From contig JAWNGF010000003.1 in NCBI GenBank assembly GCA_037039685.1, positions 248,001 through 312,000 of the forward strand: a stretch of 64,000 bases of DNA, written 5' to 3'. Shown here one piece after another: positions 1 to 43,812 of this stretch. This DNA is from Ceratobasidium sp. AG-K (Eukaryota > Basidiomycota > Agaricomycetes > Cantharellales > Ceratobasidiaceae). Made by a program: the position numbers and the translations under genes. The notes beneath the pieces were generated by a model. It had not been told where the DNA came from. It worked only from the letters and a program-made list of their open reading frames with translations, and did no database searches. Numbering within the stretch: position 1 is the first letter of the stretch; the number at the start of each line of letters is the position of its first letter.

Positions 1-3000
1 TGTTGCTTTGCAAAATTGCCAAAAATGTTTTGACTTTTGCATTAGTCTTGCATTAGTCTGAGTTGTAATCACCATTAGTGATTGGTTCCAATGGCCCTCA
101 CTTCTATTTTCTAATGATCTATTGCTCTGGAATTGTAATCTGGATTAGTGCTGACTTGTAATGCCTGATTAGTCCAAAGTTGTAATAAGCAACTACTTCT
201 GACTTGTAATCAGCATTATTGATGGACTTGTAATCCAGAGTGGTGCTATTGCGTTGCAAAATTGACAAAAATGTCTTGACTTTTCATTAGTATTGGGTAG
301 AAGTAATGCGGATTGGTATTGGACTTGTAATCGGAATAAGTGAGAACTTGTAATGGCTGATTAGTCTGGACTTGTAATCAGCTATTTGTTTCTGGGCATA
401 ATCTGGATTAGTTCTGACTTGTAATGAGCATTAATCTGGACTTGTAATCTGGATTAGTGCTGTTGCTTTGCAAAATTGCCAAAAATGTTTTGAGAATTCA
501 TTTATCCTGAGTTGTAATCGGCATTAGTCTTGACTTGTGATTTGCGAGTTGCTGATGTTTAATGGGTTCCGAGTTTTGGGGGCGGCTGCCACCCGCAAGC
601 GGGTCCCGTCAGCCTTATTATACACGTTAACACCCTCTAGTGGGTGGGTTTAGTTGGTGCGCTGGGTGCATAACCTAACAACCTAACTTAACAACATAAC
701 CTAACTGCGTGTTTTGCTGATTCAGAGCTGTGTCGGAAGTTGATTAACACAAACTTTGTAATCAGCGTTAGTCCCAAATTGTAATGGCCATTAGTATTTG
801 GGAGTAATGGCTGAGTATTTATCCCTTGTAATTGTCATTTATACTTGGTTGGAATCTCAATTAGTCCCGACTTGTAATGCGGGATTAGTGTCAACTTGTA
901 ATCAGAAGTATTAGTCCTGACTTGGAATTGCTCATTAGTGTCAGGGGTGTTGCGTTGCAAAGTTGGCAAAAATGTTTGGAAGTCGGGATTAGTCTTGTGT
1001 TGTATTCTGGAGTAGACCTCATTAGTCCTGACTTGTAATTGGGATAAGTCGGAACTTGCAAATATCCATTGGTCTTGACTTGTAATCAGCCATTAGCACT
1101 GGATTGTAATCTGGATTAGTCCTGACTTGTAGTCTGGATTGGTGCTGTTGCTTTGCAAAATTGCCAAAAATGTTTTGACTTTTGCATTAGTCTTGCATTA
1201 GTCTGAGTTGTAATCACCATTAGTGATTGGTTCCAATGGCCCTCACTTCTATTTTCTAATGATCTATTGCTCTGGAATTGTAATCTGGATTAGTGCTGAC
1301 TTGTAATGCCTGATTAGTCCAAAGTTGTAATAAGCAACTACTTCTGACTTGTAATCAGCATTATTGATGGACTTGTAATCCAGAGTGGTGCTATTGCGTT
1401 GCAAAATTGACAAAAATGTCTTGACTTTTCATTAGTATTGGGTAGAAGTAATGCGGATTGGTATTGGACTTGTAATCGGAATAAGTGAGAACTTGTAATG
1501 GCTGATTAGTCTGGACTTGTAATCAGCTATTTGTTTCTGGGCATAATCTGGATTAGTTCTGACTTGTAATGAGCATTAATCTGGACTTGTAATCTGGATT
1601 AGTGCTGTTGCTTTGCAAAATTGCCAAAAATGTTTTGAGAATTCATTTATCCTGAGTTGTAATCGGCATTAGTCTTGACTTGTGATTTGCGAGTTGCTGA
1701 TGTTTAATGGGTTCCGAGTTTTGGGGGCGGCTGCCACCCGCAAGCGGGTCCCGTCAGCCTTATTATACACGTTAACACCCTCTAGTGGGTGGGTTTAGTT
1801 GGTGCGCTGGGTGCATAACCTAACAACCTAACTTAACAACATAACCTAACTGCGTGTTTTGCTGATTCAGAGCTGTGTCGGAAGTTGATTAACACAAACT
1901 TTGTAATCAGCGTTAGTCCCAAATTGTAATGGCCATTAGTATTTGGGAGTAATGGCTGAGTATTTATCCCTTGTAATTGTCATTTATACTTGGTTGGAAT
2001 CTCAATTAGTCCCGACTTGTAATGCGGGATTAGTGTCAACTTGTAATCAGAAGTATTAGTCCTGACTTGGAATTGCTCATTAGTGTCAGGGGTGTTGCGT
2101 TGCAAAGTTGGCAAAAATGTTTGGAAGTCGGGATTAGTCTTGTGTTGTATTCTGGAGTAGACCTCATTAGTCCTGACTTGTAATTGGGATAAGTCGGAAC
2201 TTGCAAATATCCATTGGTCTTGACTTGTAATCAGCCATTAGCACTGGATTGTAATCTGGATTAGTCCTGACTTGTAGTCTGGATTGGTGCTGTTGCTTTG
2301 CAAAATTGCCAAAAATGTTTTGACTTTTGCATTAGTCTTGCATTAGTCTGAGTTGTAATCACCATTAGTGATTGGTTCCAATGGCCCTCACTTCTATTTT
2401 CTAATGATCTATTGCTCTGGAATTGTAATCTGGATTAGTGCTGACTTGTAATGCCTGATTAGTCCAAAGTTGTAATAAGCAACTACTTCTGACTTGTAAT
2501 CAGCATTATTGATGGACTTGTAATCCAGAGTGGTGCTATTGCGTTGCAAAATTGACAAAAATGTCTTGACTTTTCATTAGTATTGGGTAGAAGTAATGCG
2601 GATTGGTATTGGACTTGTAATCGGAATAAGTGAGAACTTGTAATGGCTGATTAGTCTGGACTTGTAATCAGCTATTTGTTTCTGGGCATAATCTGGATTA
2701 GTTCTGACTTGTAATGAGCATTAATCTGGACTTGTAATCTGGATTAGTGCTGTTGCTTTGCAAAATTGCCAAAAATGTTTTGAGAATTCATTTATCCTGA
2801 GTTGTAATCGGCATTAGTCTTGACTTGTGATTTGCGAGTTGCTGATGTTTAATGGGGTTCCGAGTTTTGGGGGCGGCTGCCACCCGCAAGCGGGTCCCGT
2901 CAGCCTTATTATACACGTTAACACCCTCTAGTGGGTGGGTTTAGTTGGTGCGCTGGGTGCATAACCTAACAACCTAACTTAACAACATAACCTAACTGCG

Positions 3001-6000
3001 TGTTTTGCTGATTCAGAGCTGTGTCGGAAGTTGATTAACACAAACTTTGTAATCAGCGTTAGTCCCAAATTGTAATGGCCATTAGTATTTGGGAGTAATG
3101 GCTGAGTATTTATCCCTTGTAATTGTCATTTATACTTGGTTGGAATCTCAATTAGTCCCGACTTGTAATGCGGGATTAGTGTCAACTTGTAATCAGAAGT
3201 ATTAGTCCTGACTTGGAATTGCTCATTAGTGTCAGGGGTGTTGCGTTGCAAAGTTGGCAAAAATGTTTGGAAGTCGGGATTAGTCTTGTGTTGTATTCTG
3301 GAGTAGACCTCATTAGTCCTGACTTGTAATTGGGATAAGTCGGAACTTGCAAATATCCATTGGTCTTGACTTGTAATCAGCCATTAGCACTGGATTGTAA
3401 TCTGGATTAGTCCTGACTTGTAGTCTGGATTGGTGCTGTTGCTTTGCAAAATTGCCAAAAATGTTTTGACTTTTGCATTAGTCTTGCATTAGTCTGAGTT
3501 GTAATCACCATTAGTGATTGGTTCCAATGGCCCTCACTTCTATTTTCTAATGATCTATTGCTCTGGAATTGTAATCTGGATTAGTGCTGACTTGTAATGC
3601 CTGATTAGTCCAAAGTTGTAATAAGCAACTACTTCTGACTTGTAATCAGCATTATTGATGGACTTGTAATCCAGAGTGGTGCTATTGCGTTGCAAAATTG
3701 ACAAAAATGTCTTGACTTTTCATTAGTATTGGGTAGAAGTAATGCGGATTGGTATTGGACTTGTAATCGGAATAAGTGAGAACTTGTAATGGCTGATTAG
3801 TCTGGACTTGTAATCAGCTATTTGTTTCTGGGCATAATCTGGATTAGTTCTGACTTGTAATGAGCATTAATCTGGACTTGTAATCTGGATTAGTGCTGTT
3901 GCTTTGCAAAATTGCCAAAAATGTTTTGAGAATTCATTTATCCTGAGTTGTAATCGGCATTAGTCTTGACTTGTGATTTGCGAGTTGCTGATGTTTAATG
4001 GGTTCCGAGTTTTGGGGGCGGCTGCCACCCGCAAGCGGGTCCCGTCAGCCTTATTATACACGTTAACACCCTCTAGTGGGTGGGTTTAGTTGGTGCGCTG
4101 GGTGCATAACCTAACAACCTAACTTAACAACATAACCTAACTGCGTGTTTTGCTGATTCAGAGCTGTGTCGGAAGTTGATTAACACAAACTTTGTAATCA
4201 GCGTTAGTCCCAAATTGTAATGGCCATTAGTATTTGGGAGTAATGGCTGAGTATTTATCCCTTGTAATTGTCATTTATACTTGGTTGGAATCTCAATTAG
4301 TCCCGACTTGTAATGCGGGATTAGTGTCAACTTGTAATCAGAAGTATTAGTCCTGACTTGGAATTGCTCATTAGTGTCAGGGGTGTTGCGTTGCAAAGTT
4401 GGCAAAAATGTTTGGAAGTCGGGATTAGTCTTGTGTTGTATTCTGGAGTAGACCTCATTAGTCCTGACTTGTAATTGGGATAAGTCGGAACTTGCAAATA
4501 TCCATTGGTCTTGACTTGTAATCAGCCATTAGCACTGGATTGTAATCTGGATTAGTCCTGACTTGTAGTCTGGATTGGTGCTGTTGCTTTGCAAAATTGC
4601 CAAAAATGTTTTGACTTTTGCATTAGTCTTGCATTAGTCTGAGTTGTAATCACCATTAGTGATTGGTTCCAATGGCCCTCACTTCTATTTTCTAATGATC
4701 TATTGCTCTGGAATTGTAATCTGGATTAGTGCTGACTTGTAATGCCTGATTAGTCCAAAGTTGTAATAAGCAACTACTTCTGACTTGTAATCAGCATTAT
4801 TGATGGACTTGTAATCCAGAGTGGTGCTATTGCGTTGCAAAATTGACAAAAATGTCTTGACTTTTCATTAGTATTGGGTAGAAGTAATGCGGATTGGTAT
4901 TGGACTTGTAATCGGAATAAGTGAGAACTTGTAATGGCTGATTAGTCTGGACTTGTAATCAGCTATTTGTTTCTGGGCATAATCTGGATTAGTTCTGACT
5001 TGTAATGAGCATTAATCTGGACTTGTAATCTGGATTAGTGCTGTTGCTTTGCAAAATTGCCAAAAATGTTTTGAGAATTCATTTATCCTGAGTTGTAATC
5101 GGCATTAGTCTTGACTTGTGATTTGCGAGTTGCTGATGTTTAATGGGTTCCGAGTTTTGGGGGCGGCTGCCACCCGCAAGCGGGTCCCGTCAGCCTTATT
5201 ATACACGTTAACACCCTCTAGTGGGTGGGTTTAGTTGGTGCGCTGGGTGCATAACCTAACAACCTAACTTAACAACATAACCTAACTGCGTGTTTTGCTG
5301 ATTCAGAGCTGTGTCGGAAGTTGATTAACACAAACTTTGTAATCAGCGTTAGTCCCAAATTGTAATGGCCATTAGTATTTGGGAGTAATGGCTGAGTATT
5401 TATCCCTTGTAATTGTCATTTATACTTGGTTGGAATCTCAATTAGTCCCGACTTGTAATGCGGGATTAGTGTCAACTTGTAATCAGAAGTATTAGTCCTG
5501 ACTTGGAATTGCTCATTAGTGTCAGGGGTGTTGCGTTGCAAAGTTGGCAAAAATGTTTGGAAGTCGGGATTAGTCTTGTGTTGTATTCTGGAGTAGACCT
5601 CATTAGTCCTGACTTGTAATTGGGATAAGTCGGAACTTGCAAATATCCATTGGTCTTGACTTGTAATCAGCCATTAGCACTGGATTGTAATCTGGATTAG
5701 TCCTGACTTGTAGTCTGGATTGGTGCTGTTGCTTTGCAAAATTGCCAAAAATGTTTTGACTTTTGCATTAGTCTTGCATTAGTCTGAGTTGTAATCACCA
5801 TTAGTGATTGGTTCCAATGGCCCTCACTTCTATTTTCTAATGATCTATTGCTCTGGAATTGTAATCTGGATTAGTGCTGACTTGTAATGCCTGATTAGTC
5901 CAAAGTTGTAATAAGCAACTACTTCTGACTTGTAATCAGCATTATTGATGGACTTGTAATCCAGAGTGGTGCTATTGCGTTGCAAAATTGACAAAAATGT

Positions 6001-6831
6001 CTTGACTTTTCATTAGTATTGGGTAGAAGTAATGCGGATTGGTATTGGACTTGTAATCGGAATAAGTGAGAACTTGTAATGGCTGATTAGTCTGGACTTG
6101 TAATCAGCTATTTGTTTCTGGGCATAATCTGGATTAGTTCTGACTTGTAATGAGCATTAATCTGGACTTGTAATCTGGATTAGTGCTGTTGCTTTGCAAA
6201 ATTGCCAAAAATGTTTTGAGAATTCATTTATCCTGAGTTGTAATCGGCATTAGTCTTGACTTGTGATTTGCGAGTTGCTGATGTTTAATGGGTTCCGAGT
6301 TTTGGGGGCGGCTGCCACCCGCAAGCGGGTCCCGTCAGCCTTATTATACACGTTAACACCCTCTAGTGGGTGGGTTTAGTTGGTGCGCTGGGTGCATAAC
6401 CTAACAACCTAACTTAACAACATAACCTAACTGCGTGTTTTGCTGATTCAGAGCTGTGTCGGAAGTTGATTAACACAAACTTTGTAATCAGCGTTAGTCC
6501 CAAATTGTAATGGCCATTAGTATTTGGGAGTAATGGCTGAGTATTTATCCCTTGTAATTGTCATTTATACTTGGTTGGAATCTCAATTAGTCCCGACTTG
6601 TAATGCGGGATTAGTGTCAACTTGTAATCAGAAGTATTAGTCCTGACTTGGAATTGCTCATTAGTGTCAGGGGTGTTGCGTTGCAAAGTTGGCAAAAATG
6701 TTTGGAAGTCGGGATTAGTCTTGTGTTGTATTCTGGAGTAGACCTCATTAGTCCTGACTTGTAATTGGGATAAGTCGGAACTTGCAAATATCCATTGGTC
6801 TTGACTTGTAATCAGCCATTAGCACTGGATT
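1..6831. repeat. Tandem satellite array, 1145-bp unit, about 6 copies
   Basis: Units start at 1, 1146, 2291, 3437, 4582 and 5727. The period is 1145 bp except for the third unit, which has one extra G in a G run near 2854. The sixth unit breaks off at 6831, about 39 bp short of a full unit, where the sequence changes abruptly. By eye the copies are otherwise identical, which implies recent homogenisation or amplification. The unit is AT-rich and built from shorter degenerate elements: many GACTTGTAATC...ATTAGT steps of about 20-25 bp, and four versions of a TTGCAAAATTGCCAAAAATG block (unit positions near 10, 250, 470 and 955). It also has a CCTAAC-rich patch near unit position 670-705. The array starts before the window, so its full length is unknown. 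No ORF of note is present. Confidence 0.97.
584..614. other. Hairpin-forming GC-rich segment within each satellite unit
   Basis: GGCTG...CAGCC encloses a perfect inner stem CCCGC-AA-GCGGG. The same segment recurs once in every 1145-bp unit. It stands out because the rest of the unit is AT-rich. It is followed directly by a second small stem, CACCC-TCTA-GTGGGTG. Function is unknown; it could be a cruciform or a transcription or replication stall site. Confidence 0.6.
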
Positions 6832-40336: not shown

Positions 40337-41244
40337 ATGCCGCCCGATTTTCTTTCTGACTATTGGTCGCCACTTTCCTCCTCGCCTCCAACCTCCGTCT
40401 CTCTCGGGGTTTGGATCTCCGATCCCTCGCCCCTGCATGACTCGAACCCCCCCACCGGCAACTCGCCCGCTCTGTCGCCGTCGTACGCCGCTGCTCCCTC
40501 CGCCACGAGCTCGGTTTCTCTCGGCATCTGGATGTCCGACTCGGCTCCCGCGAACGGCGCGGACTCGACGTTTACCGAGCTGTCCCCGTCTTCGCCGCTT
40601 CTGTCCTCCCCGGCGCTGTCGTACGCCGCTGCTCCCTCCGTTGCCAGCTCGGTTTCTCTCGGTGGCTGACGACTGGCTGGGCTCCCGCGAACGGCACAAA
40701 CTCGGCGTTGACAGAGCTGCCCCCGTCCTCGCTCCTGCTGTCTTCAGCCGGCGATGCGTCTCTATCGACTGCCGACTCGGTCTCCCTCGGTGAGTCCGTA
40801 GCCAACCCCGTCCGCTCGTCCTCGCTTGAGTCGGTCGCTGGATCGACCTGGTCCCGAAGTTCACCCTCCCTCGGCGCTTGGATCTCGGACCGCTCTAGGT
40901 CCGTCCGTCACTCGTTCTTGGGCTCGAACTCGGACTCGGAACCTCCTTCCCCTGCCGCTTCGCCTCGCTCGTGGATTTCGAGCTCGGTCATCGGCGAAGA
41001 CTTTGCCCACGCACGGGAGATCTGGCCCGATCTCTCCGCCGCCCTCTCCGATGAAGGTCGCCGTCATGCCGACGCCATCGCTGACCTGTTCACTCGCCGC
41101 GGGTTTATTCCCCATCTGTCGCTCGACGCCGAGTGGAATGACTTACTTGCGGATCACATTGAGCGTGTGAATGTGATTCAATGGTAAGTGACTTGTATTT
41201 ACGCGATACTCGGTAGCTAATTATCGCGTAGTGTGTTTGAGTGA
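40337..41244 (+). CDS. Hypothetical Ser/Pro-rich repeat protein, ~268 aa, 3 exons
   Basis: Model: 40337-40661, 40715-41183, 41232-41244. The 53-bp (GTGGCT..ACAG) and 48-bp (GTAAGT..GTAG) introns give 269 codons with the stop. The N-terminal half consists of imperfect Ser/Pro/Ala repeats with SVSLG(V/I)W(I/M)SD and SYAAAPS(A/V)(T/A)SSVSLG units. The C-terminal part is different: DFAHAREIWPDLSAALSDEG, RRHADAIADLFTRRGFIPH, LDAEWNDLLADHIERV. The first intron lies within what would be one more repeat unit and aligns with the preceding unit except for one missing base. A frameshifted exon is therefore an alternative to an intron. The gene diverges from the SNF2 copy B gene; about 990 bp of GC-rich DNA separates them. 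Function unknown. Confidence 0.45.
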
Positions 41245-41774
41245 TCCAGGGCTCCGTGGCCTTTATGTATGCATGTAGATATATGACACCTTTGTACTAT
41301 AAAAACAATTGGATTACTTTTCAGACCCCCGAAGTAGCCACACATCATTATTAGCCCCGTTGAGGTGCGCACAATTGTTCGTATGTACCGCAGGCTCGCA
41401 ATATCCACAGCAAAATTACTCAAACCTAGTATGCTTTGCTCTCGGCTGTTGTTAACCATCATCTGGTCGAGCCCGGACTGCTGCCTTACATGCTATGAGT
41501 CCAGGCACATCGGCATACGCCGGTCTGAAGACTCAGGCTCCGCGCGGTCATACGTGGTTTGAGGCTATGCATTCACGCGCTCACCCTTATTCCATTGGCT
41601 GCTGCATCCCTGTTGAGTCATACGTCGTATGGGTCTCCACATTGGTCCACCATTCTAGACCAGCTGACATCACGTGATGCACCTCACCTCGGGATGTCCA
41701 AGGATTGATGGTCTCCGTCCGACGATCCTAGCTCATCCTACGTGAGCCTATAACCTAAACATAACTAAGAACTA
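41245..41774. other. Intergenic; scattered CATACG motifs
   Basis: No gene seen. Three diverged CATACG(C/T)CG(G/T) motifs occur near 41514, 41549 and 41619, related to those at 28.9-29.5 kb. The last ~30 bp contain TATAACCTAAACATAACTAAG just before the ribozyme-bearing array. Confidence 0.5.
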
Positions 41775-41819
41775 GGCCGCCGTGCCGCTTAGCGTGGGAG
41801 TTCCTTGGCCCCCAGCAGA

Positions 41820-41827
41820 TATATAAA
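41820..41827 (+). promoter_or_regulatory. TATA box just upstream of hammerhead, one per unit
   Basis: TATATAAA lies a few bases before the ribozyme's first stem in units 1-3 (equivalent positions near 42447 and 42758). Unit 4 has TATATATA at the matching place. Conservation in each unit suggests that every unit can carry its own RNA polymerase II promoter, but initiation has not been shown. Confidence 0.45.
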
Positions 41828-41830
41828 CAA

Positions 41831-41905
41831 GGGGATGAGCACTGATGAGGTGTCATACCGAAAGCGCTAGTTCACGTTGTGTGCTAGCCCTTTGCTTTCA
41901 TCCCC
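41831..41905 (+). ncRNA. Hammerhead self-cleaving ribozyme, type I, copy 1
   Basis: Stem I: GGGGAUGAGCA (41831-41841) pairs with UGCU-UU-CAUCCCC (41893-41905), 11 bp with a 2-nt UU bulge. Core: CUGAUGA. Stem II: GGU-GUCAU-ACC with the expected G10.1-C11.1 pair. Then GAAA. Stem III: a long hairpin AGCGCUAG.../...CUAGCCCU with one C.C and one U.U mismatch, closed by A15.1-U16.1. The cleavage-site triplet is CUU, with predicted cleavage after 41892. All invariant core bases (CUGANGA and GAA) are present. The stem I bulge and stem II loop are placed where natural hammerheads make their tertiary contact. CUU is an allowed but uncommon NUH triplet. Confidence 0.85.
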
Positions 41906-42457
41906 ACTTCGCTCGTGCTCGCTGCGCTTTGCACTCGCTCCGTTCCATCCCGTTTCTAACCTAACCTAAAAACTTGGTAGGGCTCGACGTGGACAAAGGG
42001 TCTCGACCCTTGGTTCTGTCGGTCCGACTACTCCGAAGCCCGAACTCCCCGGCTCAGTTCCCCGCACTTGTTGGCGGGTCGAACTCTGGGGTCGAGGCTA
42101 TAAGCGTCCTGTTACAGGCCGGGCCGGCGTCGCTGTGTCTTCCTGCTGCGCTTAGCGCCGGGGATTCGCAGGTGCCTGTTGTCAGGTGCCTAAGTGACGT
42201 GGAACAATTTAGCATACGTGGGCTCGCTTAGGCGGACACGTGTAGCCGAGGAGTGACGTGGCCGGCTGCCAAGGATTCGTTCCTTTGTACCGTGCCGAGT
42301 GGCGTGGTCTTGGCTGTTGACACGTGTCAACTTCGGCCGCCGAGATCCATGTTGTCATACTATCATTCGCTGATAGGTTATCTCGCTTAAATCACCAAGC
42401 CGGCCGCCGTGCCGCTTAGCGTGGGAGTTCCTTGGCTCCCAGCAGATATATAAACAA

Positions 42458-42532
42458 GGGGATGAGCACTGATGAGGTGTCATACCGAAAGCGCTAGTTC
42501 ACGCTGTGTGCTAGCCCTTTGCTTTCATCCCC
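42458..42532 (+). ncRNA. Hammerhead self-cleaving ribozyme, type I, copy 2
   Basis: Same fold as copy 1, with a single change in the stem III loop (GCU instead of GUU). Predicted cleavage is after 42519. RNA cut here and in copy 1 would release a 627-nt unit. Confidence 0.85.
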
Positions 42533-42768
42533 ACTTTGCACTCGCTCCGTTCCATCCCGTTTCTAACCTAACCCGGCTGCCAAGGATTCGTTCCTTTGTA
42601 CCGTGCCGAGTGGTGTGGTCTCGGCTGTTGACACGTGTCAACTTTGGCCGCCGAGATCCATGTTGTCATACTATCATTCGCTGATAGGTTATCTCGCTTA
42701 AATCACCAAGCCGGCCGCCGTGCCGCTTAGCGTGGGAGTTCCTTGGCTCCCAGCAGATATATAAACAA

Positions 42769-42843
42769 GGGGATGAGCACTGATGAGGTGTCATACCGAA
42801 AGCGCTAGTTCACGCTGTGTGCTAGCCCTTTGCTTTCATCCCC
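42769..42843 (+). ncRNA. Hammerhead self-cleaving ribozyme, type I, copy 3
   Basis: Identical to copy 2 over the 75 nt. Predicted cleavage is after 42830, releasing a 311-nt monomer with copy 2. Confidence 0.85.
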
Positions 42844-43079
42844 ACTTCGCACTCGCTCCGTTCCATCCCGTTTCTAACCTAACCCGGCTGCCAAGGATTC
42901 GTTCCTTTGTACCGTGCCGAGTGGTGTGGTCTCGGCTGTTGACACGTGTCAACTTTGGCCGCCGAGATCCATGTTGTCATACTATCATTCGCTGATAGGT
43001 TATCTCGCTTAACTCGCCAAGCCGGCCGCTGTGCCGCTTAGCGTGGGAGTTCCTTGGCTCCCAGCAGATATATATACAA

Positions 43080-43154
43080 GGGGATGAGCACTGATGAGGT
43101 GTCATACCAAAAGCGCTAGTATACGTTGTGTGCTAGCCCTTTGCTTTCATCCCC
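43080..43154 (+). ncRNA. Hammerhead copy 4, core mutated (G12 to A)
   Basis: Stem I, CUGAUGA, stem II and stem III are kept, but ACC is followed by AAAA instead of GAAA (position 43109), which replaces the invariant G12. G12 is the general base in hammerhead cleavage, so this copy should be inactive or very weak. In stem III, UUCAC is UAUAC, which turns the U.U mismatch into an A-U pair and a C-G pair into U.G, so the helix persists. Confidence 0.75.
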
Positions 43155-43217
43155 ACTTCGCTCGTGCTCGCTCGCTGCGCTTCGCACTCGCTCCGTTCCA
43201 TCCCGTTCCTAACCTAA

Positions 43218-43812
43218 ACTGAGTGTCATGTAGATGCAAGTCCAGAGTAAAATGGTGGCTGGAGGGAAAAAAACATGGGCATGTGACCAAAATTGCAGCA
43301 TGCCAAGGATGGCAGGGTGAAATTTTCGATATTTGGGGAATAGCTCAACAACCTACTAGACAACTTGCCTTGAAATTTTAACTGAAAGATCTGATAGCTA
43401 TGACATATCGTATTGATGACCGCGATTCTTCGATTCCCATCATGAAAAATATTACATAGCAATATTTCTCCACCACCCTGTAGGTGTTGAATCTACTATG
43501 CTTATCAATCACACTACGGAGCATTATCCTACAGTTCAAGACACGAAATTCATACCAAAGAATAAAACAACGTTGCCCCTTGCAGCACTAAGGCCAGGCC
43601 ACCTCAGTGAGATGACATCGCCGCTTGCTCTCCGCTGATATGTGCATCTGCAATTGTTGCAATCGTACAACATCGCGCATGTAGTCGTGCGTCATCCGCG
43701 GCGTCGTGCTTGGCCTTATCATCACAAGGTCTACGCTGCCCCATAAAGCGGTGAGGTACCTGGTACAAGCGTTTCAGTCGGTCATTGCTGTAGCAACCAA
43801 TCAATGATTGAC
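43218..43812. other. Intergenic; no gene seen
   Basis: AT-rich DNA downstream of the ribozyme array. A 70-codon minus-strand ORF at 43604-43816 could be a further exon of the F-box gene next to it, but I found no good splice pair joining it. Confidence 0.4.

Follow-up and report, generated by a model that had tools for sequence, protein, structure and literature searches.

What kind of repeat sets four hammerhead ribozyme (HHR) motifs in tandem in the nuclear genome of the basidiomycete Ceratobasidium sp. AG-K? The array in question occupies positions 41775–43217 of the window, by which we mean the whole stretch of 64,000 nucleotides that was analysed (contig JAWNGF010000003.1, positions 248,001 to 312,000); all features described here lie on its forward strand. 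A preliminary description read the array as a free-standing, non-coding relative of retrozymes. We conclude, with a probability of roughly 0.88, that its units are copies, truncated at the 5' end, of a Penelope-like retrotransposon (PLE) that attaches to telomeres, lacks an endonuclease and has an HHR in its pseudo-long terminal repeat (pLTR). This pLTR combines a hammerhead of type I with a TATA-like box and, at its 3' end, a C-strand telomere tract (CUAACCUAACC in RNA). Two parts of the earlier interpretation hold: every unit carries a single HHR-like motif with a TATA-like box, and the repeat is a nuclear one connected with retrotransposition. A free-standing non-coding array is not supported, given a pLTR that adjoins an intact reverse transcriptase (RT) gene, the telomere-tract ends of the units and a unit that is a crossover hybrid.

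In 2014 Cervera and de la Pena reportedly described HHRs carried by fungal PLEs, and the Coprina elements of Gladyshev and Arkhipova (2007) are said to be telomere-associated, endonuclease-deficient PLEs of fungi. Endonuclease-lacking, telomere-attaching PLEs that carry HHRs are a known kind, to which the element described here belongs, and we make no claim that fungal examples are unpublished. HHRs have been described in PLEs, telomere-attached ones included (PMC6431247; PMC11167929).

Results

The array unit is part of a coding element

Elsewhere in the genome (loci are given as C1, C4 and so on), the same pLTR as in the array units adjoins an open reading frame (ORF) of 1123 residues, which is intact and identical in three copies. 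At the right end of C1 the ORF is flanked by unit pieces with an HHR on both sides; at C4:4.14 Mb it is again flanked by unit pieces, but there the 3' pLTR is cut short and the only HHR lies 5' of the ORF. These two loci are 99.95% identical over 4236 bp and both have partial-tandem pLTRs around the ORF, while the 5' pLTR of a copy at C1:7.6 Mb is a stub of just 25 nt. The element has a period of 4230 bp and a single ORF. Neither the giant size (up to 40 kb) nor the accessory ORFs of the Terminon type were found, and a longer distal part could lie at unassembled chromosome tips.

Against RVT_1 the ORF scored 29.5 bits, just below the cut-off of 29.6, and sequence searches of the PDB returned weak RT matches only. 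The AlphaFold model of the ORF retrieved telomerase RT at ranks 1–11 in Foldseek and, in a second fold comparison, at ranks 1–8 by Z (17.1–16.4), the TM values in Foldseek being low (0.22–0.27 by query) and one RT of a diversity-generating retroelement lying within 1 Z. The model suggests a telomerase-like RT fold, the RT type expected of a PLE. No GIY-YIG domain was found in the ORF, either as a Pfam match at E≤10 or as a signature by regular expression. Relatives bear PF28514/PF26215, both of which are outside the Pfam set searched for the ORF. A protein-query search, in which only the best candidates were scored, found no second coding PLE family; a descriptor scan of the retrieved loci returned HHRs of this pLTR family alone; and no relatives were confirmed among viral and genome contig collections.

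Most copies begin and end in telomere-like sequence

Fungal telomere repeats usually read TTAGGG; here the repeat is a pentamer, TTAGG, as seen at the right end of C1 and the left end of C5, and C1 terminates in (TTAGG)n directly behind the 5' end of an element copy. By rule, 38 of the 43 mapped pieces have as their 3' end the same CTAACC tract, the complement of the (TTAGG)n telomere repeat, and the tract is visible in three more, the remainder being one piece with a degenerate 3' end and one (on C4) that is cut short. Reverse-complement telomere repeats thus stand 3' of the HHR, as in telomere-attaching endonuclease-deficient PLEs. Telomere-like letters occur by rule at the 5' junction in 33 of the 43. 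The 5' starts of 38 pieces could be judged (four others start at a locus edge and one with a split alignment was excluded) and fall at 29 distinct positions. Truncation of the 5' end by telomere repeats, in copies joined head to tail, is a further trait of such elements. These counts include the duplicated regions of C3 and C5.

Of 192 matches, the first 100 listed include ten telomere tracts, seven of which lie within 10 kb of an element copy, where 1.7% per tract would be expected; several tracts are internal to contigs and are either real or assembly joins. The copies at C4:4143464 and C7:190.8 kb share a pLTR start base (a4166, 'a' coordinates being positions in the element reference), and each is fused there to (CCTAA)n. 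Near-identical large duplications were observed at C3 45–127 kb and 289–370 kb, and on C5 with an offset of about 520.7 kb; the C5 one holds an internal telomere tract, and all of them are either segmental duplications or haplotypes joined in the assembly. Tracts resembling AACCTAACC also close several other repeat families beside PLE copies, so that attachment to telomeres may extend beyond a single family.

Hammerhead anatomy, decay and divergence

Four segments of 75 nt have the layout of a type I hammerhead, at 41831–41905, 42458–42532, 42769–42843 and 43080–43154, with successive spacings of 627, 311 and 311. All four have CTGATGA, a 3-bp stem II with a 5-nt loop, A15.1-U16.1, a CUU site and a stem I of 11 bp with a UU bulge. 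Units 1 to 3 read GAAA and retain every core residue, the predicted cuts falling after 41892, 42519 and 42830; the fourth reads AAAA (G12A), with its site after 43141, is predicted to be inactive and is probably dead. Each HHR is preceded by a TATA-like box of the pattern TATATA(A/T)A, a putative promoter element, at 41820–41827, 42447–42454, 42758–42765 and 43069–43076, the box starting 11 nt before the HHR in all four units. The preliminary description had located the four segments, the cuts of units 2 and 3, the spacing and the box just upstream correctly. The stem III of 10 or more bp that it proposed is indeed long and has a C.C mismatch at the third pair and, in units 1 to 3, a U.U mismatch further out. 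A release of 311- and 627-nt monomers shrinks to one predicted fragment of each length, since the HHR of unit 4 is broken.

We consider that an HHR motif is present in the pLTR, judging by sequence and pairing, and that self-cleavage is a predicted ability of the array HHRs whose core is intact. A descriptor composed after the motif had been seen, lenient on stem III and requiring GAAA, matches at three loci in the window; 100 first-order Markov simulations (64 kb, both strands) contain no match. A 40-nt pattern with at most three mismatches occurs at 37 places in the genome, and its reversed control at none.

The 311-bp unit itself has at least 45 BLAST places in the 53.6-Mb genome. Our HHR survey comprised 43 copies with a complete 5' half, representing 18 distinct sequences; one more 5'-truncated HHR piece (C1:9898900) lies outside this set. 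The core is intact in 30 copies, 11 have G12A, one has A9G and one has two changes. G12 sits within a CpG, so G12A likely arose through methylated-CpG decay. Recent full copies keep all core residues in their pLTR HHRs. In C8:2016326, an older copy, the site is CUC and one stem III pair is flipped, with mismatches besides.

Six places (C4:296144, C1:104928, C4:4207228, C5:7617, C5:528314 and C17:188776, two of them a duplicated pair) form a subfamily B, which is 73–80% identical to the other copies and which has pLTR copies, although the protein-query search found no coding copy for it. The core is kept in one of the six. In subfamily B the HHR has barely changed over its first 28 nt, while stem III has been rewritten yet remains largely paired (G-C to A-U, U-A to C-G, A-U to U-G, G-C to U-A). 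Pairs were counted in 14 of the 18 distinct sequences, leaving out C3:127275, C11:460685 (which breaks A15.1), C4:296144 and C3:2934931, as well as outer stem I, which MAFFT misregisters in subfamily B. Of the cells, 92.1% are paired; shuffles reach 86.1% and slid versions no more than 57.5%. Both sides are changed in 15 cells, against 4.9 in shuffles.

The measures of pairing are not unanimous, for both-side-changed pairs number 4 against 3.4 and further pair types 9 against 12.3; the changes in stem III are mostly a single divergence with few independent events. Other results count against the hammerhead. The Rfam hammerhead models that the preliminary description proposed as a check gave no HHR match over the window: no family of any kind reached gathering level there, no HHR family appeared at E≤10 in 41200–43600 or in the locus of one full-length copy, and the best sub-threshold matches in the window and that locus were unrelated families. 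RF00163 had no match in the whole genome, a silence that carries no information, as its 14 controls were equally without a match. As Rfam does not recognise these HHRs, the case rests on anatomy and comparison. Finally, in the commonest genomic copy the nearest-neighbour minimum free energy (MFE) structure is another fold, at -31.8 kcal/mol compared with -28.6 for the HHR fold, and stem II is disfavoured in it.

The likeliest alternative is a dead relic, that is, a real PLE pLTR whose hammerhead has ceased to cleave, or to matter, in this fungus. Besides the Rfam result and the lower energy of the other fold, it can draw on a core broken in 13 of 43 copies and on the cut triplets, CUU and UUU being unusual in hammerheads. 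It accords poorly with recent full copies that bear a complete core, and with 28 leading nucleotides held nearly constant between subfamilies only 73–80% alike overall. We think it improbable, while treating it as a serious alternative.

One crossover may account for the 311-bp repetition

Unit 1 (41775–41969) is a 5'-truncated pLTR piece (a118–309) whose 3' end is CTAACCTAACCTAA. Unit 2 (41973–42573) is a longer 5'-truncated piece (a3920–4539), 93% identical to the C1 copy, that ends in CTAACCTAACC at 42563–42573. Unit 3 (42573–42883) is a 311-bp hybrid of units 4 and 2, and unit 4 (42884–43217) is a pLTR piece with the 3' end CTAACCTAA. Over its first 73 positions unit 3 matches unit 4, and from position 130 onward it matches unit 2, with the exception of one site (276). 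An unequal crossover involving units 2 and 4 would leave a hybrid of this sort, with one and the same junction at either end. The 311-bp repetition fits unequal crossing-over, and the window would most simply hold three attachments (units 1, 2 and 4) and one crossover. The array stretch is duplicated at C3:46 kb with no mismatches over 3000 aligned columns and four gap positions.

Retrozymes would explain the array differently, as a non-coding family of 311 and 627 nt that is transcribed, cut by its HHRs, circularised and recopied into arrays from small RNA circles. The resemblance is plain: each unit has one HHR and one TATA-like box at 311-bp spacing, the window shows no ORF in these units, and small HHR-bearing tandem units are described for retrozymes of plants and of metazoa (for the latter, PMC7229834). 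The units here are, however, fragments of a coding element, their sequence being its pLTR, so they are not the non-coding, non-autonomous family that a retrozyme would be; growth of the array fits crossover, unit 3 being its hybrid product; unit 2 continues upstream into native element sequence and not into another repeat; and at other loci both spacings and truncation points differ. We regard a retrozyme as very unlikely here, although the element could share part of the retrozyme mode should circles exist. A chance resemblance within an ordinary subtelomeric satellite, compatible with the silence of Rfam and with a repetition explained by one crossover, can be almost wholly discounted, for the motif appeared in none of 100 simulated windows and is carried by the ORF-bearing copies, which already contradict it.

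Within unit 2 a GTTGACACGTGTCAAC palindrome (42316–42331), already noted in the preliminary description, lies inside a block well conserved between subfamilies. From the palindrome onward (a4250–4320; window 42316–42390) this conservation equals that of the HHR core, so the block may have a function of its own. Another dispersed repeat, present at 8 places, abuts unit 1 (window 41200–41774), and at 360–6431 recurring TRF rows mark a tandem array whose period is about 1145 bp. A Pfam search of ten window ORFs gave one weak LRR match only.

Discussion

From the ORF and pLTR anatomy, the predicted RT fold, the shared 3' ends, the varied, telomere-lettered 5' ends and the hybrid unit 3, we infer the following course of priming and cleavage. 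The pLTR would drive transcription, and the RNA would code for the telomerase-like RT. Its CUAACC would anneal to the TTAGG overhang at a chromosome end and so prime reverse transcription, which would yield copies with a common 3' end and varying 5' stops; attached copies would then be capped by telomerase or by later copies. The hammerhead would act on tandem or readthrough transcripts and may need the protein's help to cut them.

The mapped pieces extend beyond the cut site, the C4 copy excepted, and the nearest judged 5' start is at least 32 nt from it, which argues that cut linear RNA is not the usual template. Either cutting would be slow or protein-assisted, as for the lizard element compared below, or the cut RNA would be circularised. 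A stem II disfavoured in the MFE fold fits a need for help and fits a weak ribozyme equally well. In two of the three long copies the 5' end is a partial second pLTR that reaches upstream of the TATA-like box, which implies a template longer than one unit, whether a tandem transcript or a circle. The ribozymes might make such a circle through cuts in two successive pLTRs followed by ligation, leaving CUAACCUAACC internal, and a telomere overhang could then prime synthesis beyond a first lap. Such a circle would explain both the partial second pLTR, by which the promoter is regenerated, and the absence of 5' starts near the cut site. A long uncut tandem transcript accounts for the same data, and we hold the circle to be improbable.

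The closest comparison for the telomere-attaching PLE proposed here is with the Athena/Terminon elements of bdelloid rotifers, as set out in PMC6431247. Alike are a telomerase-type RT with no GIY-YIG found, reverse-complement telomere repeats that follow an HHR close to the 3' end, and 5'-truncation by telomere repeats in head-to-tail chains. The present element differs in its period of ~4.2 kb and its one ORF, without giant accessory cargo, in its long stem III, and in a telomere tract of (CCTAA)n where theirs is (ACACCC)n or (TCACCC)n. Poseidon of Anolis, a canonical PLE, shares the pLTR-ORF-pLTR order, partial tandems, an HHR at the pLTR and insertion 3' ends close to the pLTR-ORF junction, according to PMC11167929; there the HHR has no helix III and overlaps the start of the ORF, and insertion is at AT-rich DNA. 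Unlike canonical PLEs such as Poseidon, our element has no GIY-YIG domain that we could find. The same paper reports that HHR mutants of the lizard element had no effect on insertion in vitro, and the role of PLE hammerheads is called unknown in PMC7761336.

Hence, tandem hammerhead arrays need not be retrozymes. Compact and apparently recent, the telomere-attaching PLE of this fungus has intact ORFs and a hammerhead with a long stem III; in a host with a five-base telomere repeat, this offers a convenient setting for asking what PLE hammerheads do.
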